From: a virus
Strand: one strand, 5' to 3'
IMG/VR virus record: IMGVR_UViG_3300040816_000165
Span: 1 to 30,616 of that record
DNA length: 30,616 nucleotides
The notes below the pieces were generated by a model that was not told the origin of the DNA, searched no databases, and worked only from the letters and a program-made list of their open reading frames with translations. Shown piece by piece: positions 8,432 through 25,474 of this stretch. The stretch's first letter is position 1; each line of letters starts with the position of its first letter. The position numbers and the translations under genes are program-made.

Positions 8432-8868
8432 AATTCTACCTCACCTTTTTCTAGTAGAATTTCTCTATTTGCAAGGTGTTGTTCTTCTACTAAATCTTTG
8501 TTTTCACCACTATATTTTACTGCATGGTGGTCTTTAATCATTTGGTCGTTGATATTGATTTCTGTTTCGTATACAGGATGACCTTCTGCAAAATGAGCAA
8601 TAATTGTTCCAAGGATACGCCCAAACTTACCCTTATCGTGTGAAATTAAAGATAGACTTTCTGCACTTTCTAATAGTTTTTTAAGATGTTTTTTGGATGC
8701 TTTACCAAATTTCTTTTCGACTAAATCTCTTGTTCTAGATTCAGGTGTGTCAATTCCGACCATTCTGACTCTTTGTTTTTTTAAAACTGTAGAGAAACCT
8801 AAATCGATATCTACGTCAATTGTGTCACCATCTACCACTTTTACTACACTTACTTTATACTGATACAT
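8428..8868 (-). CDS. SNase-like thermonuclease
   Basis: 146 residues of the staphylococcal nuclease family. VKVVDGDTIDVDIDLGF gives the first strands and a metal Asp; RVRMVGIDTPESRT holds the catalytic Arg, Asp and Glu; GKFGRILGTI holds the second catalytic Arg. All classical residues appear present, so activity as a Ca-dependent nuclease is likely. No signal peptide is seen, so it would act in the cytoplasm, for example in host DNA breakdown. ATG 8868 lies exactly 5 nt after a perfect late box (8874-8881) with no Shine-Dalgarno site, predicting a leaderless late mRNA. Confidence 0.85.
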   Translation of the reverse strand: MYQYKVSVVKVVDGDTIDVDIDLGFSTVLKKQRVRMVGIDTPESRTRDLVEKKFGKASKKHLKKLLESAESLSLISHDKGKFGRILGTIIAHFAEGHPVYETEININDQMIKDHHAVKYSGENKDLVEEQHLANREILLEKGEVEL

Positions 8869-8873
8869 ATTGT

Positions 8874-8881
8874 TATTTATA
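8874..8881 (-). promoter_or_regulatory. Late promoter TATAAATA giving a leaderless SNase mRNA
   Basis: TATAAATA, ACAAT, then ATG 8868. T4 late boxes occupy about -13 to -6, so +1 falls on the A of the ATG. The box overlaps the stop codon of the upstream A-type Fe-S carrier gene. Confidence 0.7.
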
Positions 8882-9191
8882 CGGTTTTAAATTGCACTGA
8901 CACTCCACATCCACATACAGATTCTTCTTTGGGGTTATTGATTCTGAACATTTCATTTAATCCTTCTTGTACCCAATCGAGGGTAGAACCACTTAAATAT
9001 GGTTTTGACATTTCATCTACAACTACTTTAAATGCACCATAATCTACAAGTGTATCTGAATCTAATAAAGGTTCTCCCTGTTCTATAAAATATTCAAATC
9101 CTGCACAACCACCACCTGTGACACCAAGTCTAATGTATTCTACTTTTTTTTCAAGTAGTTTTTCTATTGCACTGTCTGATACTTCAATCAT
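8877..9191 (-). CDS. A-type Fe-S cluster carrier (IscA/ErpA/HesB family)
   Basis: 104 residues from ATG 9191. A longer frame from ATG 9242 exists, but MIEVSDSAIEKLL is the normal family start and lies 5 nt after a perfect late box. The three conserved cysteines are present: C29 in GGGCAGF, and C93 and C95 in VCGCGVS. The protein would carry and deliver [Fe-S] clusters in the cytoplasm. HesB/IscA-like proteins are known from marine T4-like phages. This phage also encodes the scaffold IscU at 19040-19438, so two assembly steps are represented. Confidence 0.92.
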   Translation of the reverse strand: MIEVSDSAIEKLLEKKVEYIRLGVTGGGCAGFEYFIEQGEPLLDSDTLVDYGAFKVVVDEMSKPYLSGSTLDWVQEGLNEMFRINNPKEESVCGCGVSVQFKTV

Positions 9192-9196
9192 GTAAT

Positions 9197-9204
9197 TATT
9201 TATA
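9197..9204 (-). promoter_or_regulatory. Late promoter TATAAATA giving a leaderless IscA mRNA
   Basis: TATAAATA, ATTAC, then ATG 9191; no Shine-Dalgarno site fits. It overlaps the stop of the upstream glycosyltransferase-like gene. Together with family length it decides the IscA start. Confidence 0.7.
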
Positions 9205-9940
9205 TCTTTATGTGGTCGTATCCTGTATCTTGACCTATCCATGCACGTGGATAATGTTTTTTTATAAACTCCTGTTTTTCTTTTTCATGTACAAAAAAAT
9301 AATCTTCGTATGGTGCATGAATTTGTGACTCGGGGTCAACTAAATCTTGAACTGTAGAGACACTTCTTTGTGCAGAGATTGGAAACGGTCTGTATTCTTG
9401 CAACCATGGATACTTTTCTTTTGTCATCCACAAATCATTAGGACTTAACACTGTAGTGTCACAATCTTCTACAAATATTTTTGCAGCTTCAGGTTTCATT
9501 GCATATGCATGATGACCTAAAAAGTTTTTATCCGTAAGAGTTTGAATACCATCTATTTTTGGTGTGTCAAAATCTATATATTGTGGTTGATAATATGTTG
9601 GTTCACCAAAAGTACAACACATATCAAAATCTATATCAGGAAATTCATCTATAAAAATTGCATCATGTTCAAGTATAAGAATAGGTTCGTTGAGTTCTAT
9701 ACACTTATTCCATAAAAGATAGTGTGATGCAAAACAACATGCAACTCTATCGGGTCTAGGATAATTATCAAAGATATTTGGTCTATCCCCTAGTATATCT
9801 TTACAACCTCTTTTAGGTGTAATTGCATCGAATATTTGAATTTCTTCTTTATAGGAATATAAATCTGCACTATGCAAACAATCTTTAGATTCTTTTTCAG
9901 ATACTGGATGGTCTTTAATTCTAATTAGAAATGTTTTCAT
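9200..9940 (-). CDS. Glycosyltransferase-like protein (GT25-like), copy 2
   Basis: 246 residues, paralogous to its upstream neighbour. Shared blocks are FNAITPK-like (here FDAITPKRG), RPDRVACCFASHYLLWNKC, LILEHDAIFI, and a late NFLGHHAYAMKPEAAKIF. The LEHDA segment resembles the acidic metal/sugar-nucleotide site (LEDDA) of GT25 LPS glycosyltransferases. The substrate is unknown: host LPS, virion protein or modified DNA bases are all possible. Its start lies inside the end of copy 1 (20 bp overlap) without a clear RBS, suggesting coupling. Confidence 0.65.
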   Translation of the reverse strand: MKTFLIRIKDHPVSEKESKDCLHSADLYSYKEEIQIFDAITPKRGCKDILGDRPNIFDNYPRPDRVACCFASHYLLWNKCIELNEPILILEHDAIFIDEFPDIDFDMCCTFGEPTYYQPQYIDFDTPKIDGIQTLTDKNFLGHHAYAMKPEAAKIFVEDCDTTVLSPNDLWMTKEKYPWLQEYRPFPISAQRSVSTVQDLVDPESQIHAPYEDYFFVHEKEKQEFIKKHYPRAWIGQDTGYDHIKI

Positions 9941-16892: not shown

Positions 16893-17333
16893 TTATCTTT
16901 TTTTACATCTATTTTTTGCTCTTTGAATTACGTTTAGATTATTACCAATAACCAATGTCATAAATTTATTAGTAGATTGAATAGATGCGGCGTTTAAATT
17001 ACCATGTTTTCTATCGTATTCTAGTGCTGGTGTTAATAATCCTACTTTGTAGAAAAATAACCTTTCAGGTGTTGGTTTCTCACCAAATAATGGATTTGAT
17101 TCTCTAACACAATCATATTCTAAACCTCGAATTGTTGTTAAAACATCTAGTAATTGTAATGTGGTGAAAACTACCCAATCACCTGTAGAAGGTGGGTCAA
17201 CTAGTTCCCATTGGGGTAAATATTCGAACTTTCTCTGATTTACCTTTAACCAGTATTCTGTCGACTTCAGTGAATGCTCTAGACGGACACTGTCGATATG
17301 TTTCTTCTGATAACAACACGTCCACCCCATCAT
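16893..17333 (-). CDS. DUF5658-like small membrane protein, start uncertain
   Basis: The convincing part is the last 95 or so residues: DWVVFTTLQLLDVLTTIRG, CVRESNPLFGEKPTPERL, then FYKVGLLTPALE and a basic tail. This matches the pattern of DUF5658-type membrane proteins (recollection). No ATG, GTG or TTG lies in frame after the upstream cyclase stop (17197) or shortly before it. The nearest ATG pair is at 17333, deep inside the cyclase gene, giving 146 residues with an odd N-terminus. A non-canonical start, a long overlap or frameshifting from the cyclase are alternatives. Two hydrophobic segments suggest inner-membrane location. Function is unknown. Confidence 0.55.
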   Translation of the reverse strand: MMGWTCCYQKKHIDSVRLEHSLKSTEYWLKVNQRKFEYLPQWELVDPPSTGDWVVFTTLQLLDVLTTIRGLEYDCVRESNPLFGEKPTPERLFFYKVGLLTPALEYDRKHGNLNAASIQSTNKFMTLVIGNNLNVIQRAKNRCKKR

Positions 17334-19047
17334 AATTTCTTGTTTGTCCCTCGAGTCTAGCACCGAGGTTGACGGCATCTCCAATGACGGAATAGTCAAA
17401 TCTAACTTCTGACCCCATGTTTCCAACGATGCACTCACCTGTAGAGATACCAATACCAACATTGATAGGAGGAAGGTTGAGGGGTTTGAGTTCTTCATTG
17501 AGTTTCTTGGTTGCATCTAATACTTCTATTGCAGATTTAACTGCTAGTTCAGCATGATTAGGACAATCTAAGGGGGCGTTCCAAAAACTCATAATACAAT
17601 CACCCATGTATTTGTCGATTGTTCCACTATTATTTAGGATTATCTTTGTTTGCATGTCAAGAAACTTGTTTATTAGTTCAACTAATCCTTCGGGGTCGTC
17701 ATTGTTTTTATAGTGTTCGCTGATTGGAGTGAATCCACATATGTCCATGAACATGAATGTCATTTCCTTTCTCTCTCCACCTAATCTCAATAGTTCAGGA
17801 TTTTCTGCGAGTTGGTCAACCATGTCGGGAGATAAATACTTTTGGAACTGTTTTCTAATTTGTTCCTTGAGTTGATAAGTCGTATAGTATTGATTAAATG
17901 ATGCGTGACCGAAAACTAATAAGGAGGATATCGATGAAAAGAAGGTATCGAAAAGAACGAGTTGCGAAATCCATACGTAATAACCCACCCCTACCTGTAT
18001 ACTTACAAACAATAGACTCACTATCGCCGCAAGAGCTGTGGGAAGTTTGTAGACCATCAGAAGTATCAATAAAAGAACTGACACAAGAAGAACAATCTCT
18101 AGCAATTCAAGATAGTAGGATTGTTGTATACGAACTTCTTGCAAGACGGTTTGGAGAATTGAGGCTTGAACTTCGTGGGGATACATTACACCCACTGGGG
18201 TTGAAACTGGATTATTCAATCCCTCTGCAGTCAAACCCCAAATCAGAATCTTATTATTAAGTTCTGATTGAGGTAAGTCCGATGCACTAATTCTATCGAA
18301 GTGGTGCCAGTAGGATATCATTACATCACTTGTTGGAGTGGTGACAATAGGTTTTTCTCTACCCATTCTAACCCATTCTATTCCTGTTTCAGGAGTCACA
18401 CGTGTTTGATAATTTGGTTGGTCATAATATGCACGAAGTGTTTCAAGTGCAAGAGACGGATAAACTTGTTCGTTTGCGTATACGAGTAATGGTGCAGAAC
18501 GAACTGTTCCATCAAAGTTTGGTGTTCCTGATACACTTGGTGTTGATACACTTACTCCAACACCGTAAGTATTGTTCTGTAATATATCGATTGGAGATGC
18601 AATACCTGAGAATTGCCATACTGAATCTTTGATATCTCCACCACCAAATACACTTGTCCTTACAAATGGAGCAGAACCTTTCTGCGTTTGCGTTGTAGGA
18701 GATGAAGATAAGATTGATAATCTATTGATGAGTCCTTCTGCGAATGATTCATCTCCACCAAATCTATCGGGTTCTGCAAATAGAATACTAAACACATGAG
18801 TGTTAGTGTAATCAGTGTTCAATAATAAATCACGATAGATATCTCTAGGCCATGGATACTGACCATAAGTCTCTAATGATTTTTCATCTATGTCTACTAA
18901 GACAATATCTTGAACATGAATCTGTTCTTGTTGTTGGTGTAGGAAATCAAACCAAGACCACTTGATGTTTTCTACAATATAAGGTGACCATATTTTGAGA
19001 CCGACTAGAACACCAATAGTGACTAGAACGGTTTTCCAGTTATACAC
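17197..19047 (-). CDS. CHASE2-domain class III adenylate cyclase
   Basis: 616 residues from a GTG start overlapping the IscU stop by 8 bp. TM1 is about 8-22, an extracytoplasmic CHASE2 sensor spans about 25-300 (DIVLVDIDEKSLE, YGQYPWPRDIY), three TM segments lie at about 312-385, and the catalytic domain is at about 425-600. Metal aspartates D435 (FMDICGFT) and D483 (GDCIM), adenine-site K479 and S553, and transition-state N560 and R564 are present; Lys plus Ser/Thr is the class IIIb adenylate cyclase pattern. It would make cAMP in the host inner membrane in response to a periplasmic signal. A cyclase in a lytic phage is unusual. FecR and CHASE2 genes are frequent neighbours in bacteria, as here four genes apart. 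Confidence 0.92.
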   Translation of the reverse strand: MYNWKTVLVTIGVLVGLKIWSPYIVENIKWSWFDFLHQQQEQIHVQDIVLVDIDEKSLETYGQYPWPRDIYRDLLLNTDYTNTHVFSILFAEPDRFGGDESFAEGLINRLSILSSSPTTQTQKGSAPFVRTSVFGGGDIKDSVWQFSGIASPIDILQNNTYGVGVSVSTPSVSGTPNFDGTVRSAPLLVYANEQVYPSLALETLRAYYDQPNYQTRVTPETGIEWVRMGREKPIVTTPTSDVMISYWHHFDRISASDLPQSELNNKILIWGLTAEGLNNPVSTPVGVMYPHEVQASILQTVLQEVRIQQSYYLELLEIVLLVSVLLLILLMVYKLPTALAAIVSLLFVSIQVGVGYYVWISQLVLFDTFFSSISSLLVFGHASFNQYYTTYQLKEQIRKQFQKYLSPDMVDQLAENPELLRLGGERKEMTFMFMDICGFTPISEHYKNNDDPEGLVELINKFLDMQTKIILNNSGTIDKYMGDCIMSFWNAPLDCPNHAELAVKSAIEVLDATKKLNEELKPLNLPPINVGIGISTGECIVGNMGSEVRFDYSVIGDAVNLGARLEGQTRNYDGVDVLLSEETYRQCPSRAFTEVDRILVKGKSEKVRIFTPMGTS

Positions 19048-19438
19048 GTTTTGATTCCCAATCCTCTATTGCTCTTTTAATTGAGTCTTCTGCGAGGACT
19101 GAACAATGTAATTTGATTGGAGGTAATTCAAGGATTTCTGCAATCTCTTTATCTTTAATTTGTTTTGCTTCTGTAATCGTTTTACCTTTGAGTAAATCAA
19201 CGAACAACGAACTACTTGCAATTGCACTTCCACATCCATAGGTTTTAAATTTGACATCTACTATCATCTCGTTTTCGTCAAGTTTGAGTTGCAGTTTCAT
19301 GACATCACCACATGCAGGCGCACCCGTCATTCCTGTTGCAACGTTTGGGTCGTTGGGGTCGAATCTACCAACTGAGAATTGTTCAGGTGCATTGAGAACA
19401 CCTTCGAATCTATCGATTACTTTTTTACTATATGCCAT
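19040..19438 (-). CDS. iscU: Fe-S cluster scaffold IscU
   Basis: 132 residues. Cluster ligands are all present: C43 and D45 (PACGDV), C69 (YGCGSA), H111 and C112. LPPIKLHCSVLAED keeps the LPPxK motif that the chaperone HscA recognises, so it could dock on the host Isc chaperones. The protein is a full-length IscU, slightly longer than the E. coli form at about 128 residues. It has no cysteine desulfurase beside it and must use the host's. ATG 19438 is 5 nt after a perfect late box, predicting a leaderless late mRNA. Iron-sulfur users encoded nearby include the radical SAM protein. Confidence 0.95.
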   Translation of the reverse strand: MAYSKKVIDRFEGVLNAPEQFSVGRFDPNDPNVATGMTGAPACGDVMKLQLKLDENEMIVDVKFKTYGCGSAIASSSLFVDLLKGKTITEAKQIKDKEIAEILELPPIKLHCSVLAEDSIKRAIEDWESKRV

Positions 19439-19439
19439 A

Positions 19440-20015
19440 CTAGTATTTATACACGTAAACGTTCTTCCCTTTTGTTTTATGGAAGTGTGCAGTTCCTTCT
19501 TCTAGTGCATTTTTAATCTTTTGTGCAAAGGGTTTTAGATTTCCGTGTGCATCTTTTGTTCTGATTGTTTTGTCGTGATATCTTTTACCATCGTGTATGA
19601 TTACTTTGTCATACTTTGTTATACCAACTTTCTCAAAGTTGGTTGCTTTGTAGATGATTCCTTCGTGTCCGTATTCGGTGTCTGCATAACTGACTACTGT
19701 TTTACCACCCCAATCTTTTTTAAGAAGTCTAAGGGAAGCACCAATAAAAAAACTTTCAGTGTTCTTTGGAGTGTCATCGATACAACATAATCTTCTGAGT
19801 TCGATTACGTCTTCTTTACACTCACCGTATTTCATCCACTGATTTACCATTGCAAATCTACCATAGAACATTGCACCTTTCATTTCATCACGATGATATA
19901 ATGCATAACAATAGTCTGCAATACATCCATTGATTGATTTTGAATAGTGGTGTGTTTCTATGAAGTCTTTAACGTCTGACCTTTCGACTCTTTTAACATA
20001 CCAATTATTAAACAT
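19440..20015 (-). CDS. Mom-like DNA modification protein (GNAT fold)
   Basis: 191 residues from ATG 20015, with a GTG one codon earlier. Blocks HHYSKS near residue 22, ELRRLCCIDDTPKNTESFFI, SLRLLKK and VVSYADTEYGHEGIIYKATNF match the phage Mu Mom family, a GNAT-like protein that converts adenines in phage DNA to a carbamoylmethyl-type derivative and blocks restriction. The length is in the normal range for the family. The RBS is weak. If active, virion DNA would carry hypermodified adenine. Its placement between a curlin gene and iscU, rather than with replication genes, is odd. A generic acetyltransferase cannot be excluded, but the block order is Mom-specific. Confidence 0.8.
   Translation of the reverse strand: MFNNWYVKRVERSDVKDFIETHHYSKSINGCIADYCYALYHRDEMKGAMFYGRFAMVNQWMKYGECKEDVIELRRLCCIDDTPKNTESFFIGASLRLLKKDWGGKTVVSYADTEYGHEGIIYKATNFEKVGITKYDKVIIHDGKRYHDKTIRTKDAHGNLKPFAQKIKNALEEGTAHFHKTKGKNVYVYKY
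19444..19451 (-). promoter_or_regulatory. Late promoter TATAAATA giving a leaderless iscU mRNA
   Basis: TATAAATA, CTAGT, then ATG 19438. The box overlaps the final codons of the Mom-like gene (VYKY). No Shine-Dalgarno site is present. Confidence 0.7.
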
Positions 20016-20032
20016 CACTAAATTTTTTTATT

Positions 20033-20749
20033 TTAATTTCCTTGTGTGACTGATACTGAACAACCACCCACTGTAGCACAGTTTTGTGAAAGTGAATATG
20101 ATTGTGTTGTAGTGCCTTGTTGTAATAGATTAAGTGTGGTTGGGTCGGTTCCTGATAATGTAATGTTTGCAACGTGAGTTGCCCATGAACCTTTTTGACG
20201 TAATGTGATATCATTACCATCATTGTATGTTGTTAGATTGATTGTCTTTGCACCGTTATATTGTTGTCTTACCCAAATATCATTATAATCACTAAAAATA
20301 AGACTTGTGAATGTGTGACCGCTGGTACTTCCTGCATTTGTTTGATGTCCTTGTAAATGATTGTAATCTCCGTGTACGTCTAATCTTGCATAATGTCCAC
20401 CACCCTCTTGACCGTCATAAGAGTAGGTACTACTTGTTGCATTGTCCCATGCAACACCTTGACCCCAACGGATAATATTATCTTGTCCTTCAAGATGCCA
20501 TAGTTCTATTTTGTTTATTGTTCCTGAATCATTGTATTGAACTAAGTTGAGTTCACCGCCAGGTAGGTTGGTGTAGCATGAAGATGTTTGATAACATTGA
20601 ATAGTGTTTGCGTATCCCACTTGATTAATTTTTATTTCAATATCATTACCCGAAACATTCGGAATGTTTATCTCGTTATCATCTGCATAGGTCATAGGGA
20701 TGCATAACACCCCTATGATTGTCAATTGTATTTTCTTTAAAATATCCAT
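20033..20749 (-). CDS. Secreted curlin-like (CsgA/B-type) protein 2
   Basis: 238 residues with a signal peptide (MDILKKIQLTIIGVL..., cleavage near YADD). It has a canonical curlin half-repeat IKINQVGYAN (Q43-N48), then looser repeats of about 20-25 residues ending in a hydrophobic strand and Gln-Gly, such as EGQDNIIRWGQG, NDGNDITLRQKG and TTLNLLQQG, and finishes SVSVTQGN, like the last strand of CsgA. Two Cys pairs (CYQTSSC, CATVGGC) could form disulfides. It is predicted to be a periplasmic or extracellular beta-solenoid and a probable CsgG substrate. Which curlin nucleates and which polymerises cannot be told. Confidence 0.7.
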   Translation of the reverse strand: MDILKKIQLTIIGVLCIPMTYADDNEINIPNVSGNDIEIKINQVGYANTIQCYQTSSCYTNLPGGELNLVQYNDSGTINKIELWHLEGQDNIIRWGQGVAWDNATSSTYSYDGQEGGGHYARLDVHGDYNHLQGHQTNAGSTSGHTFTSLIFSDYNDIWVRQQYNGAKTINLTTYNDGNDITLRQKGSWATHVANITLSGTDPTTLNLLQQGTTTQSYSLSQNCATVGGCSVSVTQGN

Positions 20750-20877
20750 TGTAATATTAACACTAATAAGACACCTTTACCAAAACCTATCCATGCGACT
20801 TCGTATGAATCCAGTTTTAGTATGTCTATCCATTTATACGAATAGTCACGGTGCCAGTTATATAGTTTATTTAACAT
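20737..20877 (-). CDS. Small membrane protein in the curli-like locus (46 aa)
   Basis: ATG 20877 to TAA 20737 encodes 46 residues beginning MLNKLYNWHRDYSYKWIDI. An aromatic, charged N-terminal half is followed by one TM segment (WIGFGKGVLLVLIL). A strong AGGAG lies 5 nt before the ATG, and the 3' end overlaps the curlin 2 start by 13 bp, so it is very probably translated. No family is recognised. Insertion between FecR and curlin 2 suggests an accessory role in secretion or membrane anchoring. Confidence 0.75.
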   Translation of the reverse strand: MLNKLYNWHRDYSYKWIDILKLDSYEVAWIGFGKGVLLVLILQWIF

Positions 20878-20889
20878 ATATTCTCCTAT

Positions 20890-22035
20890 TTAGTTCTGCT
20901 GGGTAATATAAATTTGAATACTTGGGTCACCATTACCAAACTCGATAACACCCTCGTATCCTTCAACAGCAGTCGAAACGAAACCACTTCCACCTTGTGC
21001 AATGATTATCTCAATCACTCCGTTTACGTTTCTGTAGAGATATAAATCTCCGTCTTGGACAAATACATTATATTGTGAATCTTTGTTAAATCCTATTGTT
21101 GCACCTTGAAGGTCGAAGTCTCCTGTTTCACCTTTCTTTTGTGCATCTCCAAATTTAACTGTTGTCCTTTCTAATTCCTCTACGACATCTAATAAGTCTA
21201 CAAGGAAATCTACATCTAATAAATCGATGTCTAACTCTGAAAACTCTAAGTCTTCAGTAGTGTCTGCAAGTGCATCACTTTCCAATTCGTTAAATTCTAA
21301 AAAGTCAACATCCAATATCCCTTGGTCTTGGTCGAGGTCATTCATCGCTTCTTCTTCCATTGCGATTTTCACCTCTTCGGGTGGATTGACAATAAACATA
21401 TTATCAATCATAGATGTTGTAATATTATTAATCACCACACTTTGTGTTGGTGGTGTCTCAACTGAGGATACCATAGTCGCCTCAAATGCTTTATTAAGTG
21501 TAATCTTTCCACCTTCGTTTTCGACATCTATTTCACCTGAAGGTGTCACTCCATCTTCATCAGGCAATAACACTACAAGTGTTCTACCCAGTTCATCGAT
21601 TGTGGTTGTAAAATCTGTTCCACGAATCGTAATTTGTGCAGTAGGTGTCTCTACGTTTATATTCGCTTTGTTTATTCTTGCACCTGTTCCTGATGCAAAT
21701 CTCGCTGTTCCACGTGCCATTCGTATCGACATTTTTGATAACGATGGGTCGGGGTCATAATATGCTTCGTCAATATAGACGATTGAGTGTTCGGTTAATG
21801 AAAGTTTTTCTTCATCTAAAAATTCGATGAGCATTCTACCGTTTCCAGTTCGTGCTTCATCGTAAAGAAGAACCTCACTTCCCGTTGAGATTTCAGTATC
21901 ACTATTTTCTCTTACAAGTGTTCCTATACCTGTAAATTCAGTGACATCACCTATGGGGTCGGCGTTAACCAACCCCACCAATGATATACTAAGAATCGTT
22001 AGCTGAATCTTTTTGATTAATTTGAATTGTTGCAT
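20890..22035 (-). CDS. Periplasmic FecR-domain protein
   Basis: 381 residues from ATG 22035 (ATG 22050 is also possible). A signal peptide (KLIKKIQLTILSISLVGLVNA, cleavage near residue 25) is followed by a FecR domain at about 35-145, with the typical TPTAQITIRGTDF near its end. Then come a long acidic region rich in Asp, Glu and Leu (about 215-290) and a beta-rich C-terminus ending IQIYITQQN, which resembles the last strands of the two curlins. It could be a CsgG substrate, a matrix protein or the periplasmic partner of the CHASE2 cyclase. Its first 47 bp overlap the end of curlin 1 out of frame, so both the last curlin strand and this signal peptide use the same DNA. Confidence 0.8.
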   Translation of the reverse strand: MQQFKLIKKIQLTILSISLVGLVNADPIGDVTEFTGIGTLVRENSDTEISTGSEVLLYDEARTGNGRMLIEFLDEEKLSLTEHSIVYIDEAYYDPDPSLSKMSIRMARGTARFASGTGARINKANINVETPTAQITIRGTDFTTTIDELGRTLVVLLPDEDGVTPSGEIDVENEGGKITLNKAFEATMVSSVETPPTQSVVINNITTSMIDNMFIVNPPEEVKIAMEEEAMNDLDQDQGILDVDFLEFNELESDALADTTEDLEFSELDIDLLDVDFLVDLLDVVEELERTTVKFGDAQKKGETGDFDLQGATIGFNKDSQYNVFVQDGDLYLYRNVNGVIEIIIAQGGSGFVSTAVEGYEGVIEFGNGDPSIQIYITQQN

Positions 22036-22723
22036 TGTCTGATGTGACATCTAACACAATAATACCTGCAGGACTTGAACATCCTGTAGCACCTGATGGA
22101 CAAGTACCTGATATTTGTGTGATATCTACGTCTGCACTATCACCAGTCAAATCAACTGTAAGTGAATGTGCTTCATCGTTTTGCAATGTGTTAATATTAT
22201 TTGAATCTCCAGTCACCTCGAAATTCCATACAATATCATCACTCTCCCAATCGATATCAAATACATTTGAATTACCAATTAGAATCAAATCTGCATCTAA
22301 TCTTTCTGCACTAAAAGCATAACCTTGGTCTAAATCAAAGGTGTTTGAATCACCAGTGACATCAAAGTTATAGTTTGAAGAATCCGAACTGCCGATATAA
22401 CCAATGTTCCAATCAATTGAGTTTGAATCACCAGTAAAGTCAAGTGTATAACTTGAACTATCTGCGATTACAGGCCCGAAAAGAACGTTGTTATTTCCAG
22501 TGAAATCTAAATCAAAAGTAAGTGAAGAACCAGTAATTGTCATGGAAGATAAACTTCCTGAACTACCATCATCACCACCTACCTTGTTTCCAAAACCAAT
22601 TTGGTCTATTGTCAAACTAAGTGTGTCACCAGTTTGAGTGATTTTAATTTCATTATCATCAGTGGATTGTGCGAAAACAAAAGCTGTCGACATTAGTAAT
22701 ACTAAAGAAAGTATTTTATTCAT
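21989..22723 (-). CDS. Secreted curlin-like (CsgA/B-type) protein 1
   Basis: 244 residues. The signal peptide ends near FVFAQS. It begins with a canonical curlin pair (IKITQTG ... LTIDQIGFGN, Q41-N46), then about seven repeats of 20-26 residues around TGDSN (GNNNVLFG, GDSNSIDW, GDSNTFDLDQG, GNSNVFDIDW, GDSNNINTLQ, GDSADVDITQ, SDNATIQINQ). Each reads as strand-turn-strand, as expected for a beta-solenoid. It is very acidic with little Lys/Arg, unlike CsgA. One Cys pair is present (CPSGATGC). AAGGA precedes the ATG, which overlaps csgG by 8 bp (ATGAATAA). Confidence 0.75.
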   Translation of the reverse strand: MNKILSLVLLMSTAFVFAQSTDDNEIKITQTGDTLSLTIDQIGFGNKVGGDDGSSGSLSSMTITGSSLTFDLDFTGNNNVLFGPVIADSSSYTLDFTGDSNSIDWNIGYIGSSDSSNYNFDVTGDSNTFDLDQGYAFSAERLDADLILIGNSNVFDIDWESDDIVWNFEVTGDSNNINTLQNDEAHSLTVDLTGDSADVDITQISGTCPSGATGCSSPAGIIVLDVTSDNATIQINQKDSANDS

Positions 22724-23636
22724 TTTCGTTTTTTCCTTCTATTTCCCAAAAACCTCTATCGTGTCCTTGGTTTATTAATTCCAGTACTGCAGCTTCAATC
22801 GCTGTTCGTACTGCGTATGTCACACTTTCATTATTTCCCACACCGTTCTCATATTCTATTAATTGAGTTCCTTGTTCTATAAATCGGAACACATCACCTG
22901 AAGACCCATAAGACAAAACAGTCTTACGTGTCTGAACGTTTAATAACACTTCACCTGTTAATACGGACACTGCTCTCATGGATACGGTGACGGAATCTTT
23001 TTGATATTGTCTTGCGTATCCTATACCAAGTGTTCTTGCGCCTATCCCACCTGTTTCCATATTAGTATCATAACCAATTACACCCCCTTCTATTATCATT
23101 CCTGCGAATAGTAGAGGTTGTAAACCTTGGGGAGTTTCTCCCGTTGACCTTGCATAGTCGTCTCTTGCGCTACGTATGATTTGTCTCTCACGGACTAGGT
23201 GGTCAATCCCATTCCTTTCTGCGACACGAAACCATGTTCCATTTCCTGCAGTCTTAAGTGCATCAACTACCATCTCAACTCCACCTTGTGTCACTGCAGT
23301 AGAGAAGTCTGCGATTCCTTCTCTTGATTTTCTTTGTCCAGTTTTATCTTGAAACTGATAAACTGCAACAATTGGTTTTTCTTTTGCAGGTGGTAATTGC
23401 ATAAGTTCAATGTATGATGGAAGTTGAACTACTTGAGGATTATCTACACAAACATAAGGCATTGCACGTTCAAACGTTCTTCCACCTGCTTTTGCATAGT
23501 TCCATAAATCATGATTATACTCTTCACCCCATGTTTCGGGATTACAATCTTTTGGATTGTCTGACCAACGTGGAACAGATGCACATCCTCCTAATAAGAT
23601 TGTAGATAATACTATTGATGAAATTAATTTATCCAT
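22716..23636 (-). CDS. csgG: CsgG-like outer-membrane curli secretion lipoprotein
   Basis: 306 residues from ATG 23636, chosen because it starts a lipoprotein signal with lipobox LGGC (C18) and overlaps csgF by 8 bp (ATGGATAA). Strong family blocks are VAVYQFQDKTGQRK, FSTAVTQGG, ERNGIDHLVRERQIIRSAR, AGMIIEGGVIGYDTN, GGIGARTLGIG, KTVLSYGSSGDVFRFIE and RGFWEI. CsgG forms a nonameric outer-membrane channel. Its E. coli constriction residues Y51/N55/F56 correspond here to about R, D and F with one extra residue, so the pore eyelet may be charged. Length is slightly above E. coli CsgG (277). CsgE is not seen. Confidence 0.95.
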   Translation of the reverse strand: MDKLISSIVLSTILLGGCASVPRWSDNPKDCNPETWGEEYNHDLWNYAKAGGRTFERAMPYVCVDNPQVVQLPSYIELMQLPPAKEKPIVAVYQFQDKTGQRKSREGIADFSTAVTQGGVEMVVDALKTAGNGTWFRVAERNGIDHLVRERQIIRSARDDYARSTGETPQGLQPLLFAGMIIEGGVIGYDTNMETGGIGARTLGIGYARQYQKDSVTVSMRAVSVLTGEVLLNVQTRKTVLSYGSSGDVFRFIEQGTQLIEYENGVGNNESVTYAVRTAIEAAVLELINQGHDRGFWEIEGKNENE

Positions 23637-24102
23637 CAGGGTCTTGTGCAAAGTTTCCAGTACCAACTGGAATAGTAATTTCTGTTGATGTTCCATCTTC
23701 TGCAACAACAATCAATCTTATAAATTCTGTACCTGATTCATCAGTGATTACTTCCCATGTGATTGTATTTCCTTCTAATACAAAGGAACCAAAACCTGCA
23801 GGAGTATCATTTGCAAACATTGATTCAACCAATTGTTTTGCAAATTGAGCATATATTCTGCTCTCTAAGTTTCTTATAAATTTTGCGAGGGTGGAATTTT
23901 CTTCTTCTCTTTGTGCGGCCTTTTCAGCGGCGTCCAATGCATCACGAATCGCTTTCTTCCTTGATGTCTCTTGGTTCTCAATTGTAAGGTAATGAGCACC
24001 AGTTCCGATTCCACTGAAGGATGGATTTTTGAATTTGTGTACTATGTCTGCGTTAGTCTGACCTATCGAGAATAGTAGTGTTGTCAATATTATTTTTTTC
24101 AT
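23629..24102 (-). CDS. csgF: CsgF-like curli assembly factor
   Basis: 157 residues with signal peptide MKKIILTTLLFSIGQTNA. The mature N-terminus DIVHKFKNPSFSG (FKNPSF at 24-29) matches the CsgF segment (FRNPNFGG) that inserts into the CsgG pore. A helix follows with RNLESRIYAQFAKQLVESMF, and the C-terminal strands TITWEV, IRLIVV and GTSTEITIPVG resemble the CsgF tail. An extra charged helix (about 48-72, DALDAAEKAAQREEEN) is longer than in E. coli (138 residues total). It overlaps the radical SAM gene by 50 bp and csgG by 8 bp. Confidence 0.88.
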   Translation of the reverse strand: MKKIILTTLLFSIGQTNADIVHKFKNPSFSGIGTGAHYLTIENQETSRKKAIRDALDAAEKAAQREEENSTLAKFIRNLESRIYAQFAKQLVESMFANDTPAGFGSFVLEGNTITWEVITDESGTEFIRLIVVAEDGTSTEITIPVGTGNFAQDPDG

Positions 24103-24898
24103 GTATGTTTACCGTCTTTATAATTTCTAAACCTTTTTTATAATTTTTTAAATCGGTCTTCCACATTTTACTAAACCACCGTTCTTGTCGTGCAGGCCAA
24201 TAACATGTTTTACACCTATCTAAAGGTTCATCACGATGCACATAATTAATAATGTCTTTATCATTAGACCAGTCTACACCCTCACTTCTCTCATTCATAA
24301 GAATGGTGCAACGGTATATCCCTTCTTTAGATAAAGATACACACTTATCTTTTTGGTAGCAATTATTCCAATTACTCCATTGGTCATACTCAACATTTTC
24401 CCATTTTTCACCGAAACGGACAAAGGTATCTTGTTGCCAAAAATCTACAGTAGAATTTTTTATCAGTTCTTTATACACATTTGAACGAGTTAATTCACTA
24501 TCAATTCTACCCAATTCTGTATAAACTGAAATAATGATTCGGTCATAACTTTTCATTATGTCGATTATGTTATTAGAAAAATTTAATCCATTTGTGACAA
24601 TAGATAATTTTTCATAACAATCATTATTTTCTACTAAGTACTCAGTAATTTCTCTGAGTTCTTTGTGTGTTGTAGGTTCTCCACCTAGAACTTTTAGTTC
24701 TTCAACACATAAATCTAATCTGTTGAAGTTTTCTATAATGTCTTTGACATCCTCTAACTTCAAATATGGTATAGTGATTTTACCTTTCTTATCGTAATCT
24801 CCACCATAATCAAGAACACTACAACCAGTGCAATGTAAATTACAAGCGTTAGTTATGTATAAATCATAACTACCTTTTAGTAGTTTTCTTTTTTTCAT
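24053..24898 (-). CDS. Radical SAM enzyme with extra C-terminal cysteines
   Basis: 281 residues from ATG 24898 (GTG 24904 is possible). The [4Fe-4S]/SAM site is NACNLHCTGC (C19, C23, C26), with LGGEPTTH as the GGEP motif. C-terminal cysteines (CYQKDKC, YRC, CKTC) suggest a SPASM/twitch-like auxiliary cluster, often seen in peptide-modifying enzymes. The substrate is unknown. Being directly before csgF makes a curlin or a small membrane protein a possible target, but a role in sugar or nucleotide modification is equally open. The phage-encoded IscU/IscA could supply its clusters. Confidence 0.85.
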   Translation of the reverse strand: MKKRKLLKGSYDLYITNACNLHCTGCSVLDYGGDYDKKGKITIPYLKLEDVKDIIENFNRLDLCVEELKVLGGEPTTHKELREITEYLVENNDCYEKLSIVTNGLNFSNNIIDIMKSYDRIIISVYTELGRIDSELTRSNVYKELIKNSTVDFWQQDTFVRFGEKWENVEYDQWSNWNNCYQKDKCVSLSKEGIYRCTILMNERSEGVDWSNDKDIINYVHRDEPLDRCKTCYWPARQERWFSKMWKTDLKNYKKGLEIIKTVNIHEKNNIDNTTILDRSD

Positions 24899-25136
24899 TT
24901 TCACGGTATTCTAGAACAACATCAACCTTTTCTTTTAATCGAATTAGGTCTTGGTCTAACATTCTAGTTTGGTCTATCACTCTTATCAATGCAAAGTGCA
25001 TCTTTTCAATTTCGGGGTCTATCTTTTCTCCAATAAACCACCACACATAATATACGAAGTATCCTAGTCCAACCATCATGACAACTGGAAATCCGTAATC
25101 GGTAATAAGTTGAACTATTGCAGAAGTATCTTCCAT
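24870..25136 (-). CDS. Small membrane protein B, paralogue of its upstream neighbour
   Basis: 88 residues. It has a short N-terminal helix (SAIVQLITDYGFP), one TM segment (VVMMVGLGYFVYYVWWFI), then a charged amphipathic coiled-coil tail rich in Asp, Glu and Lys. The layout equals that of the preceding gene, indicating tandem duplication. Topology is reminiscent of small BhlA/UviB-like holin-related proteins, but that is only suggestive. AAGGGA precedes ATG 25136; a one-base overlap (TAATG) couples the pair. Confidence 0.7.
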   Translation of the reverse strand: MEDTSAIVQLITDYGFPVVMMVGLGYFVYYVWWFIGEKIDPEIEKMHFALIRVIDQTRMLDQDLIRLKEKVDVVLEYRENEKKKTTKR

Positions 25137-25432
25137 TAGTCCCTTCTCACATCAAGTTTACCGTCTTCTATAAAGTTTTCTGCACGTGCAACTCTCTCTA
25201 TATCGGGTCTTAACTCTAATGCACTTGACACTAACATGTCTATCTTAATCATTTCGTTAGACATCGTTCTTGCACGATTCTCTAACGATTCACAAAACAT
25301 TGTAAGTGTTCTTATTGAGTCAACTATACCTTCAAATATTTGTTTGATTACCATAAAGATGAAGAATCCCATGACTAATGCCATTGCAATCGGAACCCCA
25401 ACTTCACCTATCAAATTAAATATTTCTTCCAT
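25136..25432 (-). CDS. Small membrane protein A, BhlA/UviB-like layout
   Basis: 98 residues. The N-terminal EEIFNLIGEVGVPIAMALVMGFFIFMVIKQIFEG is one amphipathic-then-TM element, followed by a helical tail (SLENRARTMSNEMIKIDML). It is paralogous to the next gene. The ATG is 5 nt after a perfect late box (25438-25445), and the 5-nt gap is GAGGT, so the only possible RBS would sit at the extreme 5' end of the mRNA. It is the first gene of the late unit leading into radical SAM-csgF-csgG. Holin or membrane-scaffold function is possible. Confidence 0.72.
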   Translation of the reverse strand: MEEIFNLIGEVGVPIAMALVMGFFIFMVIKQIFEGIVDSIRTLTMFCESLENRARTMSNEMIKIDMLVSSALELRPDIERVARAENFIEDGKLDVRRD

Positions 25433-25437
25433 ACCTC

Positions 25438-25445
25438 TATTTATA
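25438..25445 (-). promoter_or_regulatory. Late promoter TATAAATA at the head of the curli-like unit
   Basis: TATAAATA, GAGGT, then ATG 25432, with N5 spacing as at iscU, iscA and the SNase gene. It starts within the U-tract of the preceding terminator, so one unit ends exactly where the next begins. Confidence 0.75.
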
Positions 25446-25474
25446 TAAAAAAAGGGTGCATTTTAGCACCCTTT
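25446..25474 (-). terminator. Intrinsic terminator (minus strand)
   Basis: A perfect 9-bp stem AAAGGGTGC/GCACCCTTT with 6-nt loop TAAAAT, followed on the minus strand by a run of T. It follows the stop of the 83-aa gene (25492) by 17 nt. The plus-strand direction lacks a T-run, so termination is for minus-strand transcripts. Confidence 0.85.

Follow-up and report, generated by a model that had tools for sequence, protein, structure and literature searches.

The window analysed here, the whole 30,616 nucleotides (nt) of the IMG/VR virus record IMGVR_UViG_3300040816_000165, stems from a T4-like marine phage and carries a curli-type secretion module on its minus strand. In reading order, a hairpin, the sequence TATAAATA, two small genes (tmA and tmB), a radical SAM gene, csgF, csgG and the gene of a first curlin-like protein (curlin 1) are followed by genes for a FecR-domain protein, a second curlin-like protein (curlin 2), a Mom-like protein, an IscU-like protein and an adenylate cyclase with a CHASE2 domain (Table 1). 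The packing is operon-like, with many adjacent genes overlapping or almost abutting; the ATG start of csgG overlaps the 3' end of csgF. A first-pass annotation, made from the sequence alone, had placed a curli-like locus at 20033-24102, with CsgF and CsgG followed by two putative substrates. All four genes were indeed found there, with the pore and exit factor at the coordinates given; nevertheless, the range was too short, leaving out the cyclase, tmA/tmB and the promoter, and the fecR gene between the two curlin genes had been overlooked. By sequence, CsgG, CsgF and the curlin-repeat proteins identify the module as a curli, or type VIII secretion, system.

Table 1. Features of the curli module, positions referring to the window.
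Feature	Position	Strand	Evidence and remarks
Terminator-like hairpin upstream of operon	25451..25474	-	9-bp stem then T run
T4-type late promoter TATAAATA	25438..25445	-	13 nt upstream of tmA; position conserved
tmA, small single-transmembrane/coiled-coil protein	25136..25432	-	paralogue pair with tmB ahead of csgF
tmB, tmA paralogue	24870..25136	-	conserved pair position
Radical SAM protein	24053..24904	-	Pfam Radical_SAM 2e-12; inserted between tmB and csgF
CsgF	23629..24102	-	Pfam CsgF 4e-11; FKNPSF segment conserved
CsgG, outer-membrane pore lipoprotein	22716..23636	-	Pfam CsgG 1e-51; PDB CsgG chains 2e-51; lipobox LLGGC
Curlin 1, acidic, CsgB-like	21989..22723	-	NCBIfam CsgB 3e-4
FecR-domain exported protein	20890..22050	-	Pfam FecR 3.7e-9; C-terminal curlin half-repeat strand
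Curlin 2, variable	20033..20749	-	Curlin_rpt matches of orthologues; all-beta model, pLDDT 79
Mom-like DNA-modification protein	19440..20018	-	Pfam Mom 2e-32; sub-lineage insertion
IscU-like Fe-S scaffold	19040..19438	-	NCBIfam iscU 8e-51, under that model's own cut-off
CHASE2-class III adenylate cyclase	17197..19047	-	Pfam CHASE2 6.5e-34; Guanylate_cyc 4.8e-18; catalytic residues retained

A CsgG scan of viral contigs yielded 71 loci, which together with the window and the cultured phages HTVC008M and Melnitz gave 74 loci for comparison. All 74 have CsgG and curlin 1, 73 have CsgF, 72 have tmA and tmB, and 69 have FecR; curlin 2 was identified in 55 and additionally in HTVC008M, and the cyclase in 45. 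Many of the contigs stop within the module. Wherever present, the genes stood in one and the same order, shared by about 70 marine viral contigs, HTVC008M and Melnitz.

Curlin 1 is very acidic, as had been remarked in the first-pass annotation (isoelectric point 4.05), and carries GxxN motifs at residues 43, 76, 98, 124, 150 and 172. Of the five intervals separating these motifs, four measure 22-26 residues, a regularity equalled in none of 5000 shuffles; the GxxN spacing of curlin 2 was not significantly regular (P = 0.14). The Pfam family Curlin_rpt was matched by 18 of 32 curlin 1 orthologues and by 15 of 32 curlin 2 orthologues, while the window's own two curlins fall under its cut-off. 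Neither the curlins nor FecR yielded a useful match in profile searches of the PDB (a curlin 2-CsgA chain match was weak, E 5.8), and CsgF had no match among PDB sequences by phmmer. The predicted models of both curlins were all-beta (predicted local distance difference test, pLDDT, given in Table 1 for curlin 2 and likewise 79 for curlin 1), with a strand roughly every 12 residues in curlin 2. Their closest folds were mostly beta-helices, none of them significant in the PDB, and the top matches of curlin 2 among viral models were curlin-associated or PA14 proteins. The curlin 2 of HTVC008M (L001:10462-11787) has a PA14 domain (2.7e-6) N-terminal to its curlin repeats. With a mean column identity of 25% versus 54% curlin 2 is the more divergent of the two. 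Sec signal peptides were seen in the sequences of the curlins, CsgF and FecR. Sequence, synteny and the all-beta models thus bear out the earlier proposal of two secreted curlin-like substrates next to a pore and an exit factor. The reported lack of CsgE was confirmed by a dedicated search, which found no accepted match in the window, HTVC008M, Melnitz, three further phage contigs (one match was sub-threshold) and two Caulobacteraceae genomes with a related operon. CsgE is an accessory component in E. coli (PMC7029224).

The C-terminus of FecR offers a concrete candidate link from the genes of the fibre to those of the signal. All 47 of 47 full-length phage FecR proteins end in [IVLT]x[IVLT]xQ followed by no more than three residues, IxIxQxN being the commonest form; these tails are orthologues, and their counts are not independent events. 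Identity among the phage FecR proteins reaches down to about 30-36%. The same type of strand forms the C-terminus of curlin 2 (39 of 40) and lies slightly further in in curlin 1 (55 of 55, with at most eight residues after the Q or N). Elsewhere the strict tail pattern was found in 1 of 460 other phage open reading frames (ORFs), in 9 of 941 bacterial ORFs and in none of 14 FecR ORFs adjoining CHASE2 cyclases without curli. Both Caulobacteraceae FecR proteins terminate in INVTQD. Because a curlin-type tail is found in every one of these phage FecR proteins and is near absent elsewhere, FecR probably docks on curlins, either touching the curlin itself or being engaged by the curlin export path. 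A conserved internal Met indicates that the start of fecR may lie at 22035.

The cyclase of the window has retained the metal-binding residues D435 and D483, the adenine-binding K479 and the transition-state residues N560 and R564. D435, K479, D483 and R564 were invariant in 12 phages, while N560 is replaced by Ser in Melnitz. By these residues the protein should be an active class III adenylate cyclase. Its conservation is highest in the catalytic domain (62%, versus 42% in CHASE2). At its 3' end the gene overlaps with an ORF (16893-17516) of weak similarity to DUF5658. The exported FecR domain beside a CHASE2 cyclase constitutes a FecR-CHASE2 pair. FecR also adjoins a CHASE2 cyclase in 16 curli-free loci of Alphaproteobacteria, which were picked for this adjacency by eye and thus document that such pairs occur but do not give their frequency; in these loci FecR is often part of a fusion with a very large exported protein. 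CsgF was present in 5 of 385 genomes, and in the four of these outside the Caulobacteraceae neither the FecR nor the cyclase hidden Markov model found a match within the 14 kb taken. A Burkholderia FecR/CHASE2 operon was tied to biofilm (PMC5192318), and a relay from an outer-membrane barrel protein to a CHASE2 cyclase was published for S. meliloti (PMC13001267). The FecR domain and the lack of a CsgE gate would also suit an uptake channel, in which CsgG/CsgF imports nutrients such as iron chelates and FecR reports iron in the manner of FecA/FecR, an idea already published (PMC9599517, PMC7029224). We consider this very unlikely, as no TonB receptor or sigma factor is found among the module genes, the FecR ends in a curlin strand and is partnered with CHASE2 instead of FecI, and the two curlin genes would stay unexplained.

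The time of expression is constrained by the sequence upstream of tmA. Of the 71 loci, 39 have TATAAATA exactly at -13 of tmA and 46 have it no more than 80 nt away, the background being 0.03 per 80 nt. Counted over distinct tmA upstream sequences, 26 of 44 contained the late-promoter motif. Genes inside the operon were almost never preceded by it, the exception being iscU with its own copy at -13. The exact motif was not found ahead of tmA in HTVC008M. Over the entire window the number of copies was not significant (6 versus 3.2 expected), and only position-conserved copies were used as promoter evidence. Sigma-70-like promoters in the region did not exceed the level seen in shuffled sequences and were rejected. 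A further copy of TATAAATA, at 8868-8881, precedes a nuclease-like gene, again at -13, which suggests that this spacing is general for late promoters in the phage.

The proteins encoded by the leader genes tmA and tmB are about 81-115 residues long, and each has a single hydrophobic segment together with a charged helical tail. Relatives of tmA were found in 6 of 50,697 phage records, which are exactly the curli phages. One or two short histidine kinases (HKs) were described at this upstream position (Wittmers et al., 2022; PMC9599517). No kinase domain was found by Pfam in 18 tmA/tmB members, and the published HK genes are probably this transmembrane/coiled-coil pair without a kinase domain, an equation that rests on position and number. 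Five of the 18 members weakly matched a holin PHROG (best 1e-4), over short transmembrane segments. These matches, the late promoter and the restriction of such small membrane proteins to curli phages would fit a lysis-control module, in which the CsgG/CsgF pore and holin-like tmA/tmB depolarise or open the envelope at a set time; a gated or pinholin-like lysis pore was proposed for Melnitz by its authors (Buchholz et al., 2022; PMC9004378). However, this leaves two conserved repeat-bearing curlins, FecR and the cyclase unexplained, CsgG is located in the outer membrane, a T4-type lysozyme (identified by eye) is encoded nearby, and the holin matches cover short transmembrane segments, so that we regard it as quite unlikely.

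Late expression, as suggested by the promoter sequence, would likewise be expected if the curlins were virion decorations or tail parts instead of cell-surface fibres, and some of the closest folds of the models were tail fibres or spikes, though not significant. The signal peptides of the curlins, CsgF and FecR, the pore genes in the same operon and the position of the module, which is not embedded among structural genes, make this highly improbable. Fibres that chiefly block superinfection by rival phages would account for the fast divergence of curlin 2, and curli layers can shield cells, as considered in PMC9599517; nevertheless, the late promoter suggests expression too late for exclusion to be of greatest use, and such surface masking appears unlikely as the main function.

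We regard it as on balance probable, by a modest degree, that the module is a late-expressed phage operon that equips the infected cell with a curli-type surface amyloid, coupled to a cyclic AMP (cAMP) signal. CsgG and CsgF, assigned to their families by sequence, would form the outer-membrane pore. Judging from repeats and models, curlin 1 and curlin 2, the latter evolving faster, would be exported through it and polymerise, providing a fibre base and a variable adhesive part. The periplasmic FecR, as its conserved tail suggests, would dock by its C-terminal curlin strand on curlin subunits or the growing fibre and inform the inner-membrane adenylate cyclase, via its CHASE2 domain, of export or assembly. 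This last relay is proposed because FecR-CHASE2 pairs are general and an outer-membrane relay to such a cyclase is published for S. meliloti. The most likely benefit for the phage, though a speculative one, would be adhesion or aggregation of infected cells, or an altered surface before lysis. A more specific version is rather unlikely: FecR may serve as a fibre-linked checkpoint, its terminal strand being held by periplasmic curlin or the nascent fibre and thereby setting the cAMP output of the CHASE2 cyclase. If so, the phage would sense the assembly of its own surface amyloid, and cAMP would work via some phage or host target, the cell having no known receptor.

We are aware of several observations that weigh against the proposed amyloid operon with its cAMP signal. 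Among the checks suggested by the first-pass annotation, the family-model search matched CsgG, CsgF and curlin 1 (CsgB model), while curlin 2 of the window had no Pfam match by itself; structure prediction gave all-beta substrates, while Foldseek found no significant PDB match for either model, leaving a beta-solenoid fold likely only, as judged from the models. The shared descent of the FecR tails counts here as well. Among 61 genomes from the genus of a metagenome-assembled genome (MAG) labelled Candidatus Pelagibacter, only five had domains binding cyclic nucleotides (cNMP), located in 870-residue frames, and no phage-encoded cAMP receptor was found in eight phage records searched. Finally, no clumping was described for Melnitz-infected cultures (PMC9004378). 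Class III cyclases were not found in the same 61 genomes; some contigs of a ninth record, the MAG G452 that holds the phage contig L075, had cNMP matches, and the Caulobacteraceae genomes encode several proteins with cNMP-binding domains. Overall, the interpretation given in the first-pass annotation is partly supported.

The window DNA polymerase was nearest to those of cyanophages (about 49%). Regarding the origin of the module, the CsgG tree, which has long branches, united all phages with the two Caulobacteraceae in one clade (100/99), to which ordinary alphaproteobacterial curli did not belong; the Caulobacteraceae were nested inside, with the HTVC008M/Melnitz group on one side and that of the window on the other (96/96). 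Because of this nesting we tentatively suggest that phages acquired the module on more than one occasion or that it passed from a phage to a bacterium. On the Caulobacteraceae MAG contigs the surrounding genes are bacterial and tmA/tmB are absent. Four other apparent host loci from MAGs (L075, L076, L077, L083), on contigs labelled Sphingobacteriales, Flavobacteriales, Rhodobacteraceae and Pelagibacter, were set aside, as they carry the phage-type module with tmA/tmB and are probably mis-binned phage DNA. Among the inserted genes, radical SAM was found in 8 of the 74 loci and the Mom-like gene in 5; Mom-like and IscU-like genes lie within the curli operon in the sub-lineage of the window. The radical SAM protein might conceivably act on a curlin as a modifying enzyme. 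A second Fe-S assembly gene of the phage fragment, at 8877-9242, encodes an A-type Fe-S carrier-like protein as judged by eye from its sequence.

The first-pass annotation had mentioned CsgG/CsgF in some marine T4-like phages, which is correct and understated. The genes csgF and csgG were described in pelagimyophages, with capture of siblings as proposed function (Zaragoza-Solas et al., 2020; PMC7029224), and the entire module of HK, CsgF, CsgG, CsgA/B, FecR, a second CsgA/B and adenylate cyclase was reported with its ocean-wide distribution and metatranscriptome expression (Wittmers et al., 2022; PMC9599517). The core module is therefore already known, and the window is one more member, with radical SAM, Mom-like and IscU-like genes inserted. 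The tail link between FecR and the curlins, the late promoter and the misnaming of the leader genes appear to be new; further additions are the CsgE-free Caulobacteraceae operon nested among the phage lineages and the Pelagibacter genus with no class III cyclase found and very few cAMP-binding proteins. The FecR-curlin link, if true, proposes an input for FecR-CHASE2 receptors, which are common in Alphaproteobacteria and poorly understood, while the late promoter and the corrected leader-gene identity limit when and how the operon acts. A full surface-amyloid system is carried by phages of very abundant ocean bacteria, one host genus of which is seemingly without means of reading cAMP.

Compared with the published pelagiphage modules (PMC9599517, PMC7029224, PMC9004378), the window has the same gene order, CsgE missing there too, and adds the three inserted genes; the available parts of these accounts contain no mention of a curlin-like FecR tail or a late promoter. 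With the E. coli csg operon it has CsgG and CsgF homologues and curlin-repeat substrates in common. The phage module, however, is without CsgE, has no CsgD or CsgC among its genes, encodes longer and very acidic curlins and adds FecR and the CHASE2 cyclase. The Caulobacteraceae operon (L078, L079), with the order csgF-csgG-curlin-curlin-fecR-CHASE2 cyclase, resembles the phage module and equally has no CsgE, but differs in its chromosomal-type neighbours, the absence of tmA/tmB and the position of both curlin genes ahead of fecR. The BiofilmReg operon of Burkholderia (PMC5192318) likewise has an exported FecR domain beside a CHASE2 receptor, which in Burkholderia is a histidine kinase. For neither this system nor the CHASE2 cyclases of S. 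meliloti (PMC13001267) has a curlin strand been reported, or an association with curli genes; nevertheless, in both, as proposed for the phage, CHASE2 receptors are linked to surface or biofilm traits.

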